The position numbers and the translations under genes were made by a program. From positions 1,488,001-1,552,000 of the forward strand of contig NC_003283.11 of NCBI RefSeq assembly GCF_000002985.6: DNA of 64,000 bases, read 5' to 3'. Of the stretch, positions 2,871 through 54,378 are shown piece by piece (position 1 is the stretch's first letter; the number at the start of each line of letters is the position of its first letter). Source of the DNA: Caenorhabditis elegans. Taxonomy: Eukaryota > Nematoda > Chromadorea > Rhabditida > Rhabditidae. The notes below the pieces were generated by a model. It worked only from the letters and a program-made list of their open reading frames with translations, was not told where the DNA came from and made no database searches.

Positions 2871-3250
2871 TTGAAATTGAGGCTTAGGCTTAAGCTCAGG
2901 CTCAGGCTGAAATTGAGGCTTAGGCTTAAGCTCAGGCTCAGGCTGAAATTGAGGCTTAGGCTTAAGCTCAGGCTCAGGCTGAAATTGAGGCTTAGGCTTA
3001 AGCTCAGGCTCAGGCTGAAATTGAGGCTTAGGCTTAAGCTCAGGAACCTAAATTTAGACATAGGCTCAGGCCTAGGCTTAAACTTATACTAAGGTTTAGG
3101 ATTAGGCTTAAGCTTAGGTTTAGGTTTAAGCTTAGACTTAGACAAGCTTGGGCTGAGGCTTAGGCTTAGCCTTAGACCTAAGCTTAAGCTTAGGCCCAGG
3201 CTTAGGCTTAGGCTCAAACGTATGCTTAGGCTTAGGCTTATGTTTAGGCT
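2871..3250 (+). repeat. TTAGGC-like array with 36-bp higher-order units
   Basis: Positions 2871-3050 consist of five near-identical 36-bp units built from GAAATTGAGG, GCTTAGGCTTAAGC and TCAGGCTCAGGC. The rest, to 3250, is irregular TTAGGC variation. The array is open in frames on both strands and produces Leu/Arg or Ser/Leu pseudo-proteins, which are artefacts. A conserved G-rich and then A-rich flank follows at 3251-3430. Confidence 0.85.
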
Positions 3251-28611: not shown

Positions 28612-28826
28612 GCTGAGGCTCAGGCTCAGGCTTAGGCTTAGGCGTATGCTTAGTCTTAGGCTTAGGTTTAGGTTAAGGCTTAGTCTTAGGCTAAGGCTCA
28701 GGCTTAGGCTTATGTTTAGGATTACACTTACGCGTAGGCTTAGGCTTTGACTTAGGCTTAGGCTTAGGCTTAGGCTTAGGATTAGGCTTGGGCTTAGAGT
28801 TAGGCTTAGACTTAGGCTTAGGCTGG
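28612..28826 (-). repeat. TTAGGC-like array with conserved flank
   Basis: Irregular TTAGGC variants followed by GGCTGGAGGAGGAGAGGATA, then AAATTCCAGAAAATTAAAGAATTCAG, the same flank as at 3250, 32317 and 48752. Confidence 0.85.
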
Positions 28827-41190: not shown

Positions 41191-42780
41191 TTACTTTACA
41201 AAATCCTCTTGAACTGGTTGCATAACTGATGCATTCAATTTTAAATGCTTGGCAATCGAGAAAGATCTCATCTCGTAAGTGATCGGGTCCTGGCCATCAG
41301 TATCAACAGGTCTCTGTAGATGAATGAAAAAGTTGTGACTTACAACTTGAAAGTTTTTATCCGGCACGTTGAATGATCGGTGAATCCACATAGAATTCAG
41401 ATCGCTGGGCCGTGCCACAATTTTTCCTGTTGCCTGTGTGTTTGCAAACCACGAATGACTGAACTGTTCTATCATGTGGAAGTCAGAAATATTAGGCTTG
41501 TTATGGAACATCATTTCTTGTTTTGGGTATTGAAATGTGCGAATATTTGGGTGAAAGTAGAATAGTGACGCGAATTCGTGGAAATATGTCTCATATCCAC
41601 GTGGAATTAGTACATCGTCTAGATCGGCAAACGTGATAAATTTAGCGGCTTCTTTATATTGTAAAAGGCAATCCGTATGTGCACCTGCTTGATTTCTCCA
41701 TTCAACATTCGAGTTTGGCTCAGGCGAATTCAATGCGGAATTAGCGAAGTTGTATCTCATCCAAAAGTCCAACGTGACATATCCCAATTTTTCGTATTCT
41801 AGCACTAAATCGAAGTAGGACTCCAGCATACTAGTCACGTAAAGATGCAAGTGTCCACCGAAATTATGCGAGATATGCGCGTGAGCAACGAATATTTGCC
41901 ATTGCTCTGCTACGAATTGCGGCGAGATGCAAATGATCACAGGTGCGGGAGCCGTGCTACGTGCCAGTTTTAATTGGATCTGCAAAAAAGTCATTTGAAT
42001 TTTATCAAAAACAGAGTCACGATTTGTTCTTTTTAGCTGGTATTTAAAAATTAACGAAATTCCAAAGAAAAACTCCAATTGTCAAACTCACGTCAAACTT
42101 CGAGTCACCGCTCACCATCTCAAGTTTCTTTAAACTTGGCAAAGCTGTTACGTGAGCAACTATGTTTGAATATTCACAATTTGCGTAGGCTTCTCTACAA
42201 AAAATTTTTTTTTTTATTTAATTTAAAATTGCCAAAAAAATTTCAGAGAAACTGCTATTCACAGATGTCAGCTTTCAATTCCACCCAATAATCCTGTTTG
42301 AAATTCCTTACAAATAAAAACTGCCAACCTATCAACGACAGGGACACTGATTCGAATTGGAAGCTCACATCTTTAAAAGTAGTTTACTTTTTTTGGCTTC
42401 ATAGCATATACTCACTTTAACAACTTAGGAACAACAGTCACCGAAGAGCCTGAACTATTAGTTGCTACTAGCTGCATTTTGTATTTGGTAATATTTCTCA
42501 TGGTACTTCGATTCATCAGTAAAACCATAGCCAACGCATTATCTCCAAGACTTTTGGATGTTGGATAATAATACGTGTTGACAATATAGGCATCAGTGTT
42601 TGTGACAGGATCGCCGAAAAACTTTCGAGCAACGTCTTGTTTGAATGAATCATACTGTTGAAGGTATTGATCACCGTTTTCCAATATGGACGGAAGAATG
42701 AAAAAGGTAGTGAGGTAAATTGTTGTGGTGACCGAAAGAAGTAAGATTTTCTGAAAATTTTTGAGCTTAGCTTTTTCCAT
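41191..42780 (-). CDS. GT92 (DUF23) family glycosyltransferase, 432 aa
   Basis: Exons 42780-42416, 42370-42329, 42194-42092 and 41979-41191 give 432 aa. A short cytosolic N-terminus and one hydrophobic anchor (about residues 10-32, KILLLSVTTTIYLTTFFIL) indicate a type II Golgi membrane protein. The catalytic domain has the GT92 blocks APVIICISPQFVAEQWQ, GAHTDCLLQYK, the metal-binding acidic motif FADLDDVLIP near residue 289, and WFANTQATGK. Characterised C. elegans GT92 enzymes transfer beta-galactose to core fucose on N-glycans; the substrate of this one is unknown. The start was set at 42780 because it places the anchor correctly. Exon 2 is only 42 nt and its donor GTTGGC is weak, but it is the only choice that links both sides in frame. 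A heat-shock-element array lies 139-320 nt upstream. Confidence 0.88.
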
Positions 42781-42918
42781 ATTTTCTCGGTAATTTCTGA
42801 GTTTATAAACAAATTGTAAATTATTTATGTAAGTGTAGAAAAACATTGACTTGAATTGTTTAGTTACACACTTATTGATAAACTACCAGCCGCTCATTTT
42901 ATCGAATTTTTCAGAAAG

Positions 42919-43096
42919 TTCTAGAACATTCCAGAATTTTTTCGAATTTTCCAGAAGGTTCTAGAACGTTCCAGAATTTTCTCGAATTTACCAGGAAGTT
43001 CTAGAACATTCCAGAATTTTTTCGAATTTTCCAGAAGGTTCTAGAACGTTCCAGAATTTTCTCGAATTTACCAGGAAGTTCTAGAACATTCCAGAA
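42919..43096. promoter_or_regulatory. Tandem array of perfect heat-shock elements, 40-bp period
   Basis: TTCTAGAACATTCCAGAA or TTCTAGAACGTTCCAGAA begins at 42919, 42959, 42999, 43039 and 43079, exactly 40 bp apart. A-type (CATT) and B-type (CGTT) units alternate, giving an 80-bp higher-order period. Each core is TTCnnGAAnnTTCnnGAA, four contiguous pentamers of the HSF binding consensus, followed by TTCGAA and CCAGAA. Degenerate units extend to about 42900 and 43165. In C. elegans, HSF-1-binding tandem motifs of this sort are known to be carried by Helitron transposons. That this copy is part of a Helitron or drives the GT92 gene is inference. Confidence 0.85.
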
Positions 43097-43165
43097 TTTT
43101 TTCGAATTTTCCAGAAGGGACTATAACATTCTAGAATTTTCTCAAAATTTACAGAAGGTTTCCAG

Positions 43166-43634
43166 GAGGAATTAGAACATTGACCATTAAAATAAAACAA
43201 CGAAGTGTACTACGAATATGATTGAATTTGATAAATCCTACCATAGTTTTGAGTTCCATACTGCCATTAGATGTACTGAAGCGGAACAAAACGAGACAAA
43301 ATATCTAATTTAGTTATGACGTCTAAATGAAAATTTTTTCCAGCTTATTTGAAAATTGCGGAAAACTGGGAAAATAGTGAATCCTAGATGACACCGTTAG
43401 ATTAAAAATTTGAACCAAATACACTGTATTTTGTGTATCGCTTAGATAAGGGGTTTTCATAGTGCGCACTGCATTCCTACAAAGTTGCTCATTTGACTCA
43501 AATTATCCGTACCTGCCTGCCGCATTCATATGCCTGCCTGCCGCCTTCATCCAAGCAGCCGCCCACATTTTTTATACTGCTGAAGTACACATAAACCGAT
43601 TTTTATCGTTTTACATAAATCGTTTTTTTGTTCA
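43166..43634. other. Intergenic
   Basis: No gene seen. Confidence 0.5.
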
Positions 43635-43915
43635 AAAATGTTTTCAGAGCATTGATTGAAATAAAAATCTGAAAACTTCTCGAATCTACACCGTAAAAGT
43701 ACCAAACTATTTTTTTTGTGAAAAAAAAATCCGGAACTGATTGATATCGGAAGAAAATTTGTATGTCGCTCGCGTTTAGTATAGGCAGGTCGGAAATTAT
43801 CTGATGAAGAATAAAAAGAGTGTTTCCACGACACTCTATTAGGACGTTCTTGTAATTTTTCTTCAACGGGTAAGTAGACAATCCTTTTAATTTTACTTGA
43901 AGAGAGAGCGAGAGC
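43635..43915. repeat. Direct repeat, copy 1
   Basis: Contains GGAACTGATTGATATCGG and TCGCTCGCGTTTAGTATAGG, then TTTCCACGACACTCTATT. It matches 45562-45842 at roughly nine in ten positions in the core. The two copies flank the broken receptor at 44124-45304. Confidence 0.8.
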
Positions 43916-44123
43916 CGAGTCAGAAAGTTCGACGAAACAAGAGTTTACTTTCATTTTTGCTATATATTTAGAGTTCTGATTATTCTGCCATGAAGAAAAG
44001 AAAATAAAGAATTGCGTTTGGAAAAAAAAATTTACAAAACTTTTATAATGTTTTCCACATGTCCCACAGCTGTTGACTGCTCCTGACACCTAATTCCCAA
44101 GGGCCAAAAAATTTCTGAAATAG

Positions 44124-45304
44124 TTACGTGAGCTTACTCATTATCTTAAAATTTTTTACAGTACTTAATATTTCAGATCGATAGCTTTTGACTATGAAAA
44201 TTGTTGGAAGTGGATCAATAGCCGGGAATAATGCAATTGTCGTAGCAACTGAAAACTGGGGGAGCACAATATCAAGAAAACAGCATATGTAAAGTGCAGC
44301 GACCGGGATATGCATTAAAATGATTGGAACAGTTGAAAGTATATGTGCTCACTCGCCTACCTGAAACACCAACGCGACAAATAATTGCTTCTGAATTTGT
44401 TTCAGTCCGACGGATCGAAGATCCGTGTGATCTACCAATTTTCCGATACTTAAGTAGCAACGCAGGCCAAAAAATATGATTAGGGCAAATGAGGTGGTCT
44501 ACAACTTTTTGGATCTTTGCATACTGTTTGTGAAATGAACTCTCACCGTTAATACCGATTGCAGAACAAAAGTCAGGAAAGCAGTAAATTGCAATGAATT
44601 ATCGTGCGTTGAAAATATCAATGGCCCCGTATATACAACCTTATCCAATGTCGTATTCAGCTCATTTAACATAGCATCTCTGCAGTTATCCTTAAATCGT
44701 AATATTGTACAGTTTGCCCCACCTCACAACAGTATCCATCTCTGGAGAAGAGCTAAGAGGAATCCAATCCAACAAAAAACATATAATAGCATATGAAATG
44801 GGAAATGAAAACCAGGTTAAAATCTTGATGCCTTCAAACTTTTGGAGAAGTATGCTTCCAGTTGCTACAAAGTACCGATACGCGAATATAATCACGAACA
44901 TGCCCAAGGAGAATCCGGAAAAAGCACAGTACGCACCTTAAATTATATGTATGTATATCTAAACATATTCATTTTTAGAACTTCCAGTTCAGAATCATAG
45001 CAATTTCTTTTCCGAAAAATCGTTCCTCATACGGAACCACTACAGCAAACGATCGTTTAATTGAAAGCACTGTCTGAAAAAGTCCGCAAGTTATACACAC
45101 ACCCCATATGTTCAAAATTACAGTCTCGGATACAAAATCCAACACTGCATAGAATATTTCGAACACTGAAACTCCTATCAGCAAATGCTTATAGTTACCC
45201 ATTTGTGGCGGGGATTTTGAAATAATCAGCAAAGTAAGAATAAAGTTTGCGACGATGGAAAATGGAGTAGTGATTAGAAAAATTACTTTCTGGAAATGAA
45301 ACAT
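44124..45304 (-). pseudogene. Str/srj-type 7TM receptor, probably a pseudogene
   Basis: Recognisable parts are MGNYKHLLIGVSVFEIFYAV (TM2-3, after a start at 45304), KRSFAVVVPYEERF, then CAFSGFSLGMFVIIFAYRYF, TM4-5 with LTFVLQSVL, LKQIQKQLFVALVFQ (TM6) and FPAIDPLPTIF (TM7). Two joints fail. After LNW the only donor (GTTCTA) and acceptor (TTTAAG) leave the next exon out of frame. Between LVFQ and TVPIILMHIP lies about 28 nt beginning GTAGGC, too short for an intron and lacking an AG acceptor (TTTCAAC in place of TTTCAG). The rest is well conserved, so decay is moderate. The gene is flanked by direct repeats. Confidence 0.68.
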
Positions 45305-45891
45305 TTTTGATAATTTTGATAGTGAGGACGTTTAATGCAAGAATTGATGTAAATTAAAGATGCTTCTGATTTCATGTCAAACCTATCCCACCCACAATGA
45401 ATCTCAAGGGAATCTCATTACAATATATTTTTCAAGCGAAACACTTGTTAATAATATTTTATACCACAATTGGCTTGGCTATGTATACTGAAAAATAGAA
45501 AAACAATATAGAAATATTTTAGAAGCATAGATTGTCTTAAGCCTTCCATTTTTTTGAAAATTTTTCAGAGCATTAATTGAACTGGAAATCTGAAAATTTT
45601 GTGAATCTACACTGTAAAAGTACCAAACTATTTTTTTTTGTAAAAAAAATCGGGAACTGATTGATATCGGCAGAAAATTTGTTTGTCGCTCGCGTTTAGT
45701 ATAGGCAGGTCGGAAATTATCTGATGAAGAATGAAAAAGAGAATTTCCACGACACTCTATTTGGATGTTTTTGAAATTTTATTCAATGGGTAAGTAAATT
45801 GACAACTCTTTTTTTTTCATTAAAAATAACTTGAAGAGAGATAATTTGAAAAAACTGCTAAAGAACATCGCAGATAATTTAATTACCAGGT
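45305..45891. other. Intergenic; direct repeat copy 2 at 45562-45842
   Basis: 45562-45842 is the second copy of the direct repeat at 43635-43915. No gene seen. Confidence 0.7.
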
Positions 45892-47223: not shown

Positions 47224-49058
47224 TCAGAAGTCCACTTTTGGCCGTTGTTTGAGATCCTCAATTTCAGCTGAAATGAAATGTTAAGCATATGCACTGTGAA
47301 GGCAACCTACGCCTACTATAAATGTGAATCAAGCCTACACCAAAAAAATAGGCGCGGGTCGCTTTTCAGTCAAGTGAAGCCCAGACATTCAAACATGTGG
47401 GAAGCTCATAGAAATTGTTAAAACCTACAAATTTGAGTCTATAGTTTACTAATTGAAAGTGGTGTAGTCGACTTTTTTCATTTCTTTATTAGACTCAAAA
47501 TTGTCTGAGAACACCGATTTTCATAATGAAACTTCTTGAAAACTTTTCGAAAAAAATATCGCGTTTTCAACTTGATTTAGGTACATTTAAGGTCTATGGA
47601 TCACCAGATTTGGTAAAATTTGGTAACTTCTGATCCTCCATCGACCTTTAATGTACCTAAATCGAGTTGACAACGCAATATAAAAACTTCAAAATTTAAA
47701 ATTTACCATTTAATACATCGATATGCTCCAACGCTGCATCCAGCTTCTTTTTGAGCTCATTACTGATTCTCTTCTGCTCTTCCATCTCTCTTTCCAGACA
47801 CTCCTTCTCTTCATTCGAATAGATGGTTTTGCAGTCGAGCCTGCATCGATAATAATCACACAGGGCTCTATGTTTGACGTTCATTTTGTTGAGCTTCTTT
47901 TTCATCTGTTCAATCTCTGCAGTTGCATACATGTCGTTCACAATAAAGAATGACTTTTCATACGACTCATTGTCCAACTTGAGCTTCTCCAATTGCTCTA
48001 AAACATATTTTCGTTTTCAAGAAGCTTGAAAATTCAGTCTACCCTTCAATTAAAAAATTAAAAAGCTGAATTGCTTTTCAACATTTTTGCAGAAAATGTA
48101 AAGTTAAAATTTTGTTTCAACAATGTGTTTCAATTTAGAAAATGAGATCTAGAGAAATCCAAATTTTGGGCTCATGGTGCATCGATTCGGTACAACATCA
48201 CTCACTTTTAAGAATTTCGATTGTTTGGTCCTTTTCCTGAAGAAGACGGACATTTTCATCTGTCATACTACTACCTGAAATAATCAATTTAAGAACTTTC
48301 CTAACATATTCAAATATACCTTCGTCAGAACCAATCGACTGATCATCGCTGATTGTGGGGCTAGAATAGGCCACATTTTCATTCTGACAGTGAACAGCTT
48401 GGAGCTGAGCTGCAACACAAAAAAAATAAACTTAGAGATTCAAAACTGGGAAAACCAACCTTTCAATTGGACAATTTCTTCATCTTTCTTCTCAAGGTCA
48501 ACTGAAATTCTTCAAAGTTTTTGGAATACTTCTGAACTTGCCTACCTTTATAAGCTTCCTTCAAATTTTTCACAATCAGTTCCAGAGATTCTGTCTGCTC
48601 TTGGGTGTAATTTGGCACTGAACATTTGTGTTGTTGACATGGACTTGCATAAGTGTTTAAAAAAAGTGTTTAAATTTTTATAATCAGTTTTAGGCTCAGG
48701 CTTATGCTTAGGTTCAGGCTTAAGCTTAGGCTTAGACTTAGGCTTAGGTTTAAACTGGACGAGGTGGGAGAGAAAGAAAGAAAAAAGAACTCCAAGAAAA
48801 TTCAATAATTCAGAGAATTATTTCAAAAAACACGAAAATGAGACATTCCGAAGTCAATAAAACCCACAAAAAATTGTCCGAAAATGGCTCAAAAAAGCAA
48901 AAAAGTTTTTAGTAACATATCGATAAAATCAGAATTTCAACTATGTATAAATACTCACCAAATTTTTGCATGAAATACATGATGCCGCTCAAATAGACAT
49001 TCGGATATTGTTTTTGATGATCGAAAGGAGTCGAGGCCAACATCAGAATAGCATCCAT
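47224..49058 (-). CDS. Coiled-coil protein of unknown function, 235 aa
   Basis: Exons 49058-48959, 48617-48546, 48501-48460, 48409-48320, 48274-48206, 47997-47707 and 47267-47224 give 235 aa. All six introns interrupt codons after the first base (phase 1). The N-terminus is MDAILMLASTPFDHQKQYPN. Most of the rest is heptad-like charged helix (LIVKNLKEAYK, LEKKDEEIVQLK, LLQEKDQTIEILKKQLEKLK, ELKKKLDAALEHIDVLN), so a coiled coil is expected from about residue 40 to the end. A Ser/Asp-rich linker (SPTISDDQSIGSDEG) divides it. A putative trans-splice acceptor (TTTTCAG) lies about 22 nt before the ATG. Intron 1 holds a TTAGGC array, and the last intron a hairpin repeat. No family is recognised; a scaffold or cytoskeletal role would be guesswork. 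Confidence 0.82.
47455..47690. repeat. Inverted repeat inside the last intron of the coiled-coil gene
   Basis: 47455-47545 is a half copy of the GGTGTAGTCGA/TTATTAGACTC element. 47563-47612 (TCAACTTGATTTAGGTACAT) is complemented at 47640-47683 (ATGTACCTAAATCGAGTTGA). Confidence 0.75.
48686..48752. repeat. TTAGGC-like array in an intron, with conserved flank
   Basis: TTAGGCTCAGGCTTATGCTT and related units, followed by CTGGACGAGGTGGGAGAGAAAG and AACTCCAAGAAAATTCAATAATTCAG, matching the flank of the other arrays. Confidence 0.8.
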
Positions 49059-50433
49059 TCTTGCGGAATTTTTTTTTCTGAAAAGAAAAGTTGAACGCAA
49101 AATATGCAATAAAGTGATACGAAACTTTACACAGAAGCGGAAAAGTTCATTCGACTGGTGGGAATTTAAAAAAAACATAACAAAAGATTTTCAATTTAAG
49201 ATTAAACACACTTGTTTTATGCTTTTGAAAATATAAAACGTTTTGAAAATTCGGAAACCTACCACAGAAAGGATCAAAATTGTTGCCCTCAACTTTTATG
49301 ACCCATTCTTAACTATTTGCTCGGAGACGCAGAAAAAACAGGTGCCGGTCATACAAGACACATTTGTTACTCCCTTTTTGAAGAGAAAGACGGCAGAAGG
49401 AAATTATAAAACTCGAAAAAAAAAAAGAAGAGGCCACGCGTTGGTGTGTCGCACACGTGGTCGTTGGCTGTCCTTTTGCATAATTTTGAAGCAAACGCGC
49501 CTCATTGAGAATTCACGTTGGCGCCAACTCTCGCTATCCATTGGGCGTGAGAGACGCAGATACTACTTTTTTTCTCTGGACGTGAAAAACGCCAAGAATA
49601 ACCGTTTTGCCGTCTGCGTCTCTTCTTTCACACGCTATTTTGGCTGTGGACGAGGAATTCTCCTCTTCCAGGATTTTCTAGGCCATTTTCTCACATTTCT
49701 CAAGTTTTCTCGTCCGCGAGAAAACGTGAATTTTGAGACAGCCAGCGAGCACCTCGCAACAATCTGGGGCTATGTTTCCGTAAGAAAACATGAGTTAACC
49801 AACAAAAAGAAATCAAAATTTTGTGAAAACTAGCTGGTGTAGTCAATTTTTTGTGTCTGAAAACACCGGCTGGAGTTTAACTTTTTTGAAATCACCATCT
49901 AACTGTTTTTTTGATTTTCAGTTAAAAAAACTTTAGTGGGAATTAAAATTCTTTGATAAAAAAATTGGCGGGAATTCAAATTTTCCGAGGAAAGATTTGG
50001 CGGAAATTCAAATTTTCAGTGAAAAATCTTTCGTGGGAATTCAAATTTTCTAAGAAAAACTTTGGCGGGAATTCAAATTTTCTGAAAAAATCTTCGAAAT
50101 TTTGAAGTATTAGAAACTTTGAAGTAAAAAAAAAAAAAAGTCTCAGAAAGTTTAGAATTACTAAAACAACTTGGAGTACGCCAGCCAGAGCAAGCCCTTG
50201 CGAACGGCTGGTAAAACAATAAAAAGTTCGACCACAAACTCTACACCCTCTTTTAAGGCTCAAAGGATAATAAAAAACTAAAGTTTTCAAACTAAAAAGA
50301 ATTGTGGCGACATGAATTACGGGAAAAAAAAGTTCCAATGAATGTGTACAATAAAAATTAATAATTTTTATTTTAAACAGAGATCGTAATAAATTTCAAA
50401 TAATGCTCGTTTTCATTCTATTTTCCAAAAAAA
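49059..50433. other. Gene-free stretch with unclassified repeats
   Basis: 49400-49780 is GC-richer and includes ACGCGTTGGTGTGTCGCACA CG and GCGCCAAC words, and looks like a mobile-element remnant. 49965-50090 holds four irregular copies of GGCGGGAATTCAAATTTTC. No supported gene. Confidence 0.5.
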
Positions 50434-53400
50434 TCATAGCTTGCAGCTTTGAATTTTCCCCGTCTCCATATCCTCGTAGGATGCTTCTGTTTCCTCAGTG
50501 ATTTTTTCCTTGAGACTTGTTTTGGCAGGTGGCATTTGAGATCTTCCAACTAACGATTCGATCAACATTTTTTCAAGTCTGAAGTTATATTGTATGTTGC
50601 TTGTAGAACAATTTTTAAGCAACTTACTTTAATATTGGCATTTCGAAAAGACAACTCCAGAAGAAAGCAAACACAAATGAGAGGACTGTTGCAGGAATTG
50701 AAATATAGAGAAACTGAAATAGACATTTTTAGTTGATGACAAATATATTTAAAAAAAAACACTCACCACGTGCCAAGCAGACGTATAATGTAGAGCTCCT
50801 CCAACATTCAAATAAAAGTACAAAACCATCCAATGAACAATATAAGCACAGTATGATAACCTTCCAAACGGTTGCCAAATTGGATGTGACATGAAAGTAT
50901 CAATAGGTCCACCCCATCCCATATGGTTTGCTCCAACGACCCAGCACACGAATACTCCCCAACCTAGTCGATGAAAATTGAAGAATGTGGCTCTAGAAAA
51001 CGTGCTCCACTGCTCTCCCTTGTCATAATCGTACGTTGAAAATATACAGAATCCAGCAACCACAAATGCCACAATCCAAACACCAATCGAGACTGCCCAA
51101 TTCAATCGGATCCTTCTAGTTCCATAAGTAGCTAGCAGGTACCCAGTGAGAAGTCCCACTAGATATGGTGGGCATCGAATCCAAGGTTTCGAGTAGCCAA
51201 TTCCGAAAAAATACCGGTGATCACCATTACCAAGTGGATCAGCGGGAACATCATAAAGATCGAAAAGAATATATGTAGCAATGATGCTTCCAACACATCC
51301 AGCCACTATAATTGCAGTTCCAACAGCAAATGAGAAAAACAAAGCGATAAGCACAATTGGTGCAAGAATATAAAGTTGAGTGTCTACAGCTAAGTACCAA
51401 GTGATTGCGTAGCAGGTGTTTCTTTCTCTATGTTGGCTGTTGTCGAAGTTGTTGATGTAAAGAAGATTGTGCCACCAGTAGTCTTTGCATGCCTCGACTT
51501 GTGGAAATTGAACATCTGTAAAGAGGTGTTTTTGCCGTATTTGCCATTTGCCGAGCTCGGTGAATTTTAAAAAAAGTAGATTTGCCGAACTTCCCGAGCT
51601 TGTGCAAATTTTGAAATTTGCCACGAGGGCTCCCATTAGGCCGTCTCATGTATCCAAATTTATAATGCGGCGTGGTACCCCGAACGTGCCGGCCGCTCCA
51701 ATTAACTATATTTTCGCACTACGTTGCGCACACACTAAGCTACTCGTTTCACGCCAGGCTGTGGAACCCCGAACGTGTCGCCCGCTCCAAATAACTATCG
51801 TTCAGCACTACGTTGCGCACACACCAAGCTACGGAACCCCGAACGTGTCGGCCGCTCCAAATAACTATCGTTCAGCACTACGTTGCGCACACACCAAGCT
51901 ACGGAACCCCGAACGTGTCGGCCGCTTCCATATAAGTACCTTTTCGCACAACGTTGTGCACACACTAAGCTACTCGTTTCACGCCAAGCTACGGAACCCT
52001 AAACGTGTCGGCCGCTCCAAAAAGCTACCTTCTTGCACTACGTTGCGCAGACACCAAGTTACTCGTTTCACGCCAAGCTACGGAACCCTGCATGTGTCGG
52101 CCGCTTTTCATAACTGCCTTTTCGCACTACGTTGCGCACACACCAAGCATGATTTTGTTCTAGAAATTGTAGTAAAGTAACATAAAATGGAGTTATTTTT
52201 AATTTTATGTAGACCAACACTCCACACGGAATTTATTCAAAAATCAAAATTTTGCTTAGAATTCAGAAATTTTGGTGTTTCTATTTAGGAATATAACAAT
52301 TTTCTCATTTTTTCGGAGATTGCTCATTACGGCAAATCTGCCAAATTTGCCGAACTCGGCAAGTTTACCACACAGGTTGTATAAATAAACTTACTTGAGA
52401 ACGAAGCTGCAAACGGTCCTTGAACATATGGAAAATAGACAGTAAAAAATCCAATAAAAATCATTACTGTAGGAGTTAACCGTAAATATCGATGAACGTA
52501 GAAAAGAATCCACGTAACTGGGCTTGCGGCCATTTTTATATTGGGCTTCATTTTGAAAAATAAATAAGCTACCACAATTCCAGATAATGCAAAAAAGGAG
52601 TCAACGGACACCGGTGCATTTATGATCAAATGGTTCCAGAACTGATTTTGGAATTCCATAACCGGCTTCATTGTGTCCGCTTGCGTCATGTAAATAAACG
52701 AATGTCCGGTTATCACCCAAAATATCGATAAGCCTCGAATACAGTCCAACGATTTGATGAACCCTGGCTTATGCTCTTTCACAGAAAGAATTAACTCAGC
52801 ATTGGTCCAGAGGGAGAAGGTCAGTATGATTTTTATGAAAATGTTCTTCTCTTTGAGGTTGCTCAATCCTAATACAGCATCTTGGACGTAATCCAAAAGC
52901 GTAGCAAATATGGCAACAGCAATTACTATAGTTAAAAATACCCTAAAATGATAAGAAATTAGAAATTGTGAGTGCAAAAACTCACGTAAACCCCCAGAAT
53001 GGCACATCCTTCTCAACAGTATTCTTCACACAATATGCATCACAAGCAGTGAATGGATAAGGCGACAGTTGATTAAAAATATTAATCATATCCTGATGGC
53101 TGCAGGAATCTGGAAGACACACAGCCATCCGCAAAGTTACGTTGGAATACACGGAAGGTGCCGAGCAAGATATGTTTTTCCCAAAATTGAGAATAAGATA
53201 ACAATAGTTGGTTTTGTATCTTTCGCCATCAATACGGTCGCATTCTTGATAAGACCCATCATAAAGGGTTCTGAGTTCGAGTAATCCAGGAGTTGGGAAT
53301 TCTCCAAATGCGTCGAGTTCTGGAATTTTATGACTTATAAAACTAGGGTACAGATTTGCAAAAAGGCATTTTGAAAAATATAGGAAGACAATCTATATGA

Positions 53401-54307: not shown

Positions 54308-54378
54308 GTAATAGGCTTAGGCTTAGACTTAGGCTTTGGCTTAGGCTTAGCCTTAGGCATAGGTTAATGATTAGGCCC
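54308..54378. repeat. TTAGGC-like array
   Basis: Irregular TTAGGC/TTAGAC/TTTGGC units. The right flank (GATTAGGCCCCTCCTCCG) differs from the common flank of the other arrays, apart from a C-rich complement of GGAGG. Confidence 0.8.

Follow-up and report, generated by a model that had tools for sequence, protein, structure and literature searches.

A minisatellite of heat-shock elements (HSEs) upstream of a GT92-domain gene in Caenorhabditis elegans is best read, on the strength of its sequence, as the truncated relic of a Helitron. The relic forms a ladder of predicted HSF-1 sites that may place the neighbouring gene under heat control, and we regard this explanation, taken as a whole, as quite probable. 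The array lies within a window of 64,000 nt (NC_003283.11:1488001-1552000), which we analysed together with searches of the whole genome (100,286,401 bases, 7 contigs).

An HSE ladder upstream of a GT92 gene

Direct reading of the array places TTCTAGAACATTCCAGAA units at 42919, 42999 and 43079 and TTCTAGAACGTTCCAGAA units at 42959 and 43039. These are exactly the positions, at 40-bp steps and with two unit types in alternation, that an earlier note on this DNA had given. Over the whole array TRF scored a period of 80 (92% matches, score 430) above a period of 40 (85% matches, score 383), indicating that the alternation is real, and self-identity likewise rises from 0.85 at lag 40 to 0.92 at lag 80. 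The units had been described as four-pentamer heat-shock elements, which is correct but too modest. In a single 5-bp register running from 42909 to 43158, 38 of 50 pentamer slots hold an intact TTC or GAA, all but one of the 50 keep at least two of the three core bases, and two stretches of nine pentamers are unbroken (see table). The TTCNNGAANNTTCNNGAA pattern occurs ten times in the window, nine of them inside the array, compared with 0.02 on average and at most one in 100 dinucleotide shuffles of the window, which rules out a chance origin of the repeat. An Rfam scan of the window at the gathering threshold gave no match.

Table. Features of the array and its surroundings (positions in the window).
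Feature	Position	Strand	Basis
GT92-domain gene, ATG at 42780	41191..42780	-	PF01697; open frame; exon limits partly worked out
TATAAA, 27 nt ahead of the ATG, on the array side	42802..42807	-	direct read
Inferred Helitron 3' terminus CGGCTGG, then host T (A at 42885, + strand)	42886..42892	-	8-mer ACCAGCCG
HSE minisatellite, 40-bp unit, 80-bp higher-order period, ~6.6 units	42896..43160	- (inferred element strand)	TRF
Unbroken ladder of nine alternating TTC/GAA pentamers	42944..42986	none	pentamer-slot count
Second unbroken ladder of nine TTC/GAA pentamers	43024..43066	none	pentamer-slot count
Degenerate array edge, unit still recognisable, e.g. TTAGAACATT	43161..43187	-	direct read; inference

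The assignment of the neighbouring gene to GT92 held up as well. An open reading frame at 41191-42081 matches positions 2-245 of the 249 of PF01697 (E 2.3e-69), a near-full domain; the frame that starts at the ATG begins MEKAKL, and some candidate splice sites are present in the gene. The edge of the array is 116 nt upstream of this ATG and the ladder spans 116-380 nt upstream, so that a distance of 139 nt, as given previously, applies to the first perfect four-pentamer site and not to the array edge. With HSEs in register from 116 nt upstream of the ATG, the array has the sequence make-up of a Helitron-acquired heat shock element (Hac-HSE). The TATAAA between array and ATG is possibly a core promoter element. 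Str-type receptor pieces at 44124-45331 lie on the far side of the array from the GT92 gene. These pieces are flanked by a direct repeat of ~265 bp (43623-43888 and 45549-45812, 87% identical), which had no further copy among the genome matches listed. The flank at 43161-44000 had no genome match apart from one local duplicate.

Relatives of the array carry Helitron ends

Exact copies of the 18-mer TTCTAGAACRTTCCAGAA number 149 genome-wide, 54 forward and 95 reverse, whereas its reversed control is absent; the 18-mer is not mentioned in the literature searched. BLAST of the array against the genome gave at least 163 matches (40 of 343 first-look candidates being scored), with identities to other loci of up to 90% over 265 bp. 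We compared the window with 26 other array loci, chosen from the best matches and not a random sample, consisting of 20 fetched stretches and six shorter BLAST-match loci (L022, L024, L025, L026, L028, L029); L021 denotes the window array itself plus ~1.5 kb per side. When the arrays are masked, many of the loci have flanks in common on both sides.

Helitrons are marked by a 5' TC, a 3' CTRR, a 3' hairpin and an A|T target. Within the stretch examined, 19 of the 26 loci carry at least one Helitron end (5' and/or 3'). The block that they share begins A|TCATTACYTATATATAAAAAA, with A before the TC in 12 of 13 loci compared at the 5' end and C in L055, and it finishes with a hairpin followed by CGGCTGG|T (CTRR being CTGG here), the terminus of L061 being CGGCAGG|T. 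The last seven bases, CGGCTGG, are common to three types of 3' end with different hairpins, found in L052, L054 and L064, in L022, L024 and L025, and in L051, L055, L056, L060, L062, L063, L028 and L029, respectively. We counted the 3' end of L055, which has one changed hairpin base, among the 19 and left out one-mismatch look-alikes of the 3' end in L051 (at 2192) and L022 (at 2664). In each of the 19, the main array points the same way with respect to the ends. The other seven (L045, L046, L048, L050, L053, L057, L058) show no recognised Helitron end in the stretch examined; L045 and L046 nonetheless have repeated flank blocks in common with several loci. L046 and L050 each hold a pair of arrays inverted relative to each other, with a spacing of 2.3 kb in L046 and 1.4 kb in L050. 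The sequence GCGCGGTCANCGGCTGGT has 116 genome copies.

Searches for Helitron_like_N (PF14214) gave 13 matches, at six places on contig C2 and one on contig C6. The genome has 130 occurrences of the shared 5'-end pattern, and the matches listed include six 5' ends on C2 (857876, 1969814, 1977109, 1986074, 2001892 and 2600263), every one of them 2.9-3.5 kb away from a Helitron_like_N place on that contig; in two of the six the base before the TC is G instead of A. One autonomous 5' region was read, L066. It has the same 5' end, the TGTAGTCTGTGACGTCA block and 15-bp and 32-bp minisatellites, and between its 5' end and the Helitron_like_N match are HSE runs of 4-5 pentamers. One such run (element positions ~1400-1453) matches the window at 42986-42932, minus strand, with 84% identity over 57 bp (BLAST). 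When parts of L066 were compared by BLAST with the 26 loci, L021 and the window (28 sequences, the window array thus being counted twice), the 5' block matched 17, the 15-bp region 17, the 32-bp repeat 19 and the HSE run all 28, which makes the array-bearing elements relatives of an autonomous Helitron. The published heat-induced autonomous Helitron is Helitron1_CE (PMC6765114, PMC6927752).

The window copy is most probably a worn relic

At the window array CCAGCCG, the reverse complement of CGGCTGG, lies 3 nt from the TRF array edge, on the expected side and strand, and reads as a Helitron 3' CTRR followed by host T (CGGCTGG|T, minus strand 42892-42885). With CCAGCCG on its left, the array fits the orientation of the 19 loci with ends. 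A search for Helitron ends around the array, as the earlier note had recommended, thus recovered a 7-nt 3' terminus and neither of the remaining marks. L021, the array with ~1.5 kb per side, contains neither the 5' end A|TCATTACYTATATATAAAAAA, with up to three substitutions allowed, nor a hairpin-bearing 3' end. No stem of at least 6 bp precedes the terminus within 32 nt; the array follows almost directly.

Because the 5' end and the 3' hairpin are absent, we read the window array as a relic; its internal sequence is common to end-bearing elements and stands in the same orientation. That the array derives from a Helitron, as had been proposed, is highly probable in view of the ends at related loci, the match to the autonomous HSE run and the 7-nt terminus. 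In BLAST at E up to 1e-8, the flanks of the window array matched no other array locus. The pattern tried for the junction of array and terminus found only the window copy in the genome, so that a second relic truncated in the same way is not known. An intact non-autonomous Helitron, lacking as it would both 5' end and 3' hairpin, is ruled out.

We infer the following insertion history. The source would have been a non-autonomous Helitron, with a 5' terminus common to the autonomous Rep/helicase Helitrons of the genome, that lay upstream of the GT92 gene in an A|T site, in minus-strand orientation. The 5' part and nearly the whole 3' end would then have been lost, unless the element was inserted already truncated, leaving the HSE minisatellite and the terminal CGGCTGG. 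Such a remnant is not expected to move by itself.

A second worn Helitron fragment lies at 49926-50211 on the plus strand. Its 32-bp minisatellite is of the GGCGGGAATTCAAATTTTCTGA type, which also occurs in the autonomous element, and the fragment finishes at 50174-50211 with a shortened hairpin and CGGCTGG|T.

Possible heat control of the GT92 gene and alternative explanations

HSF-1 trimers bind arrays of inverted pentamers, and the remnant offers a nearly continuous ladder of predicted HSF-1 half-sites. Upon heat shock, HSF-1 trimers would most likely bind this ladder cooperatively, and transcription of the GT92 gene may then rise. Published work bears on both steps. Binding of the worm HSF-1 DNA-binding domain was cooperative on most of the HSEs tested, as many as five domains being bound (PMC9148306), and HSF-1 and Pol II are raised at Helitron HSEs on heat shock (PMC6927752). 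Sixty heat-induced genes lie at most 2.5 kb downstream of HSF-1-bound Helitron HSEs, compared with a background of 13, and in wild isolates that lack the insertion the induction of three genes falls from 254 to 3.2 fold, from 7.0 to 3.6 fold and from 8.3 to 0.4 fold (PMC6927752). By analogy, HSF-1 rather likely binds the window array during heat shock. Heat induction of the GT92 gene by two-fold or more seems doubtful, because only a part of the Helitron arrays is active and neighbouring genes have more repressive marks. The literature searched holds no report joining glycosyltransferase family 92, heat shock and elegans.

The strongest alternative, to which we give slightly better than even chances, is a Helitron relic that leaves the GT92 gene unaffected through chromatin silencing or an incompatible promoter. 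It has the same origin as the explanation that we favour, and the odds of the two overlap. Consistent with an inert relic, genes near Helitron HSEs are richer in repressive and poorer in active histone marks, and their expression is lower (PMC6927752). More than 10,000 HSEs lie in 953 Helitrons, most of them not tied in print to an induced gene, and the induced genes near bound Helitron HSEs number only 60 (PMC6927752). Nor does the HSE core show demonstrable excess conservation. Across 242 distinct 40-mers from 41 array blocks, substitutions in core and spacer were 0.105 vs 0.155 in the HSE register, but phase 2 of the same 40-mers separated better (0.091 vs 0.175), and we therefore make no claim of selection on the core. 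On the other hand, the array is close to the ATG, its intact ladders are long, and heat-induced genes are enriched near bound Helitron HSEs as cited above (PMC6927752).

It is improbable, to our mind, that the array is an ordinary minisatellite that arrived without a Helitron, by array-to-array exchange or independent seeding, and that the adjoining CGGCTGG is there by chance. The window copy indeed has no hairpin, 5' end or shared flanks, and seven of the 26 other array loci likewise have no recognised ends, though two of these have the shared flank blocks described above. The terminus argues otherwise. ACCAGCCG lies at most 10 nt from the array on the predicted side and strand, and its chance of occurrence is ~2e-6 per position and strand, or ~1.6e-4 for a 70-nt stretch beside one edge on one strand, a figure calculated post hoc. 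This terminus measures 7-8 nt at most and was itself spotted in hindsight. The exact 8-mer is present in 14 of the 26 other array loci, always at the hairpin-bearing 3' end. The window contains two copies where 0.29 are expected (two were reached in 5 of 100 shuffles), and the second, at 50205-50212, is the end of the worn Helitron 3' end described above. The match to the autonomous HSE run also speaks for a Helitron, with the reservation that all other arrays match it, with or without ends.

That the motif is no HSF-1 target in the animal, its TTC and GAA being a by-product of a palindromic 10-bp repeat, is very improbable: sequence by itself is no proof of binding, and the core is not clearly more conserved than the spacer across arrays, but de novo analysis of HSF-1 ChIP summits that lie inside Helitrons yielded HSE-like motifs (PMC6927752).

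Comparison with known systems

HSF-1 motifs on C. elegans Helitrons, which the earlier note had cited as a known phenomenon, are indeed published. Hac-HSEs are carried by HelitronY4_CE, HelitronY1_CE, HelitronY1A_CE, Helitron1_CE and Helitron2_CE (Garrigues et al. 2019, PMC6927752), and the supply of heat-shock elements by Helitrons is thus a kind of event already described. Like the Hac-HSEs (PMC6927752), the window array is an overlapping tandem HSE cluster upstream of a gene in the same species, and its relatives sit in elements with Helitron ends. In contrast to the Hac-HSE Helitrons, the window copy is reduced to the array plus 7 nt of 3' end. If the GT92 gene responds to heat, it would add to the known instances in which a transposable element has passed stress control on to a gene unrelated to it, and the element would be one pared to little beyond binding sites. 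Worn relics could escape a count limited to end-bearing copies, and comparing termini and hairpins offers a straightforward means of spotting them.

The extended HSEs of the hsp-16.2 and F44E5.4 promoters likewise hold more than three pentamers in register, and such HSEs bind several HSF-1 DNA-binding domains cooperatively (PMC9148306). They comprise four or five sites and belong to heat-shock genes (PMC9148306). The window array, in contrast, has up to nine pentamers in a row, 38 intact among its 50 slots, and adjoins a glycosyltransferase gene.

In humans, satellite III is organised in very long pericentromeric arrays. It resembles the worm arrays in being made of tandem repeats, and it is bound by HSF1 (PMC6453478), whereas the worm arrays are short and dispersed. 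The same source states that the sites of HSF-1 granules in C. elegans are unknown (PMC6453478). It is conceivable, if unlikely, that dispersed Helitron HSE ladders, the one in the window included, are docking sites of HSF-1 nuclear granules, titrating HSF-1 and able to switch their neighbours. Such ladders would be a dispersed counterpart of human satellite III.

Other repeats in the window

TTAGGC is the nematode telomere repeat. TRF located interstitial hexamer arrays of a TTAGGC rotation or its complement at 37-96, 2880-3250, 28612-28824, 48690-48752 and 54312-54363. The window also contains a 70/89-bp minisatellite at 51763-52148, with the unit GGAACCC(C/T)GAACGTGTCGGCCGCTCC...
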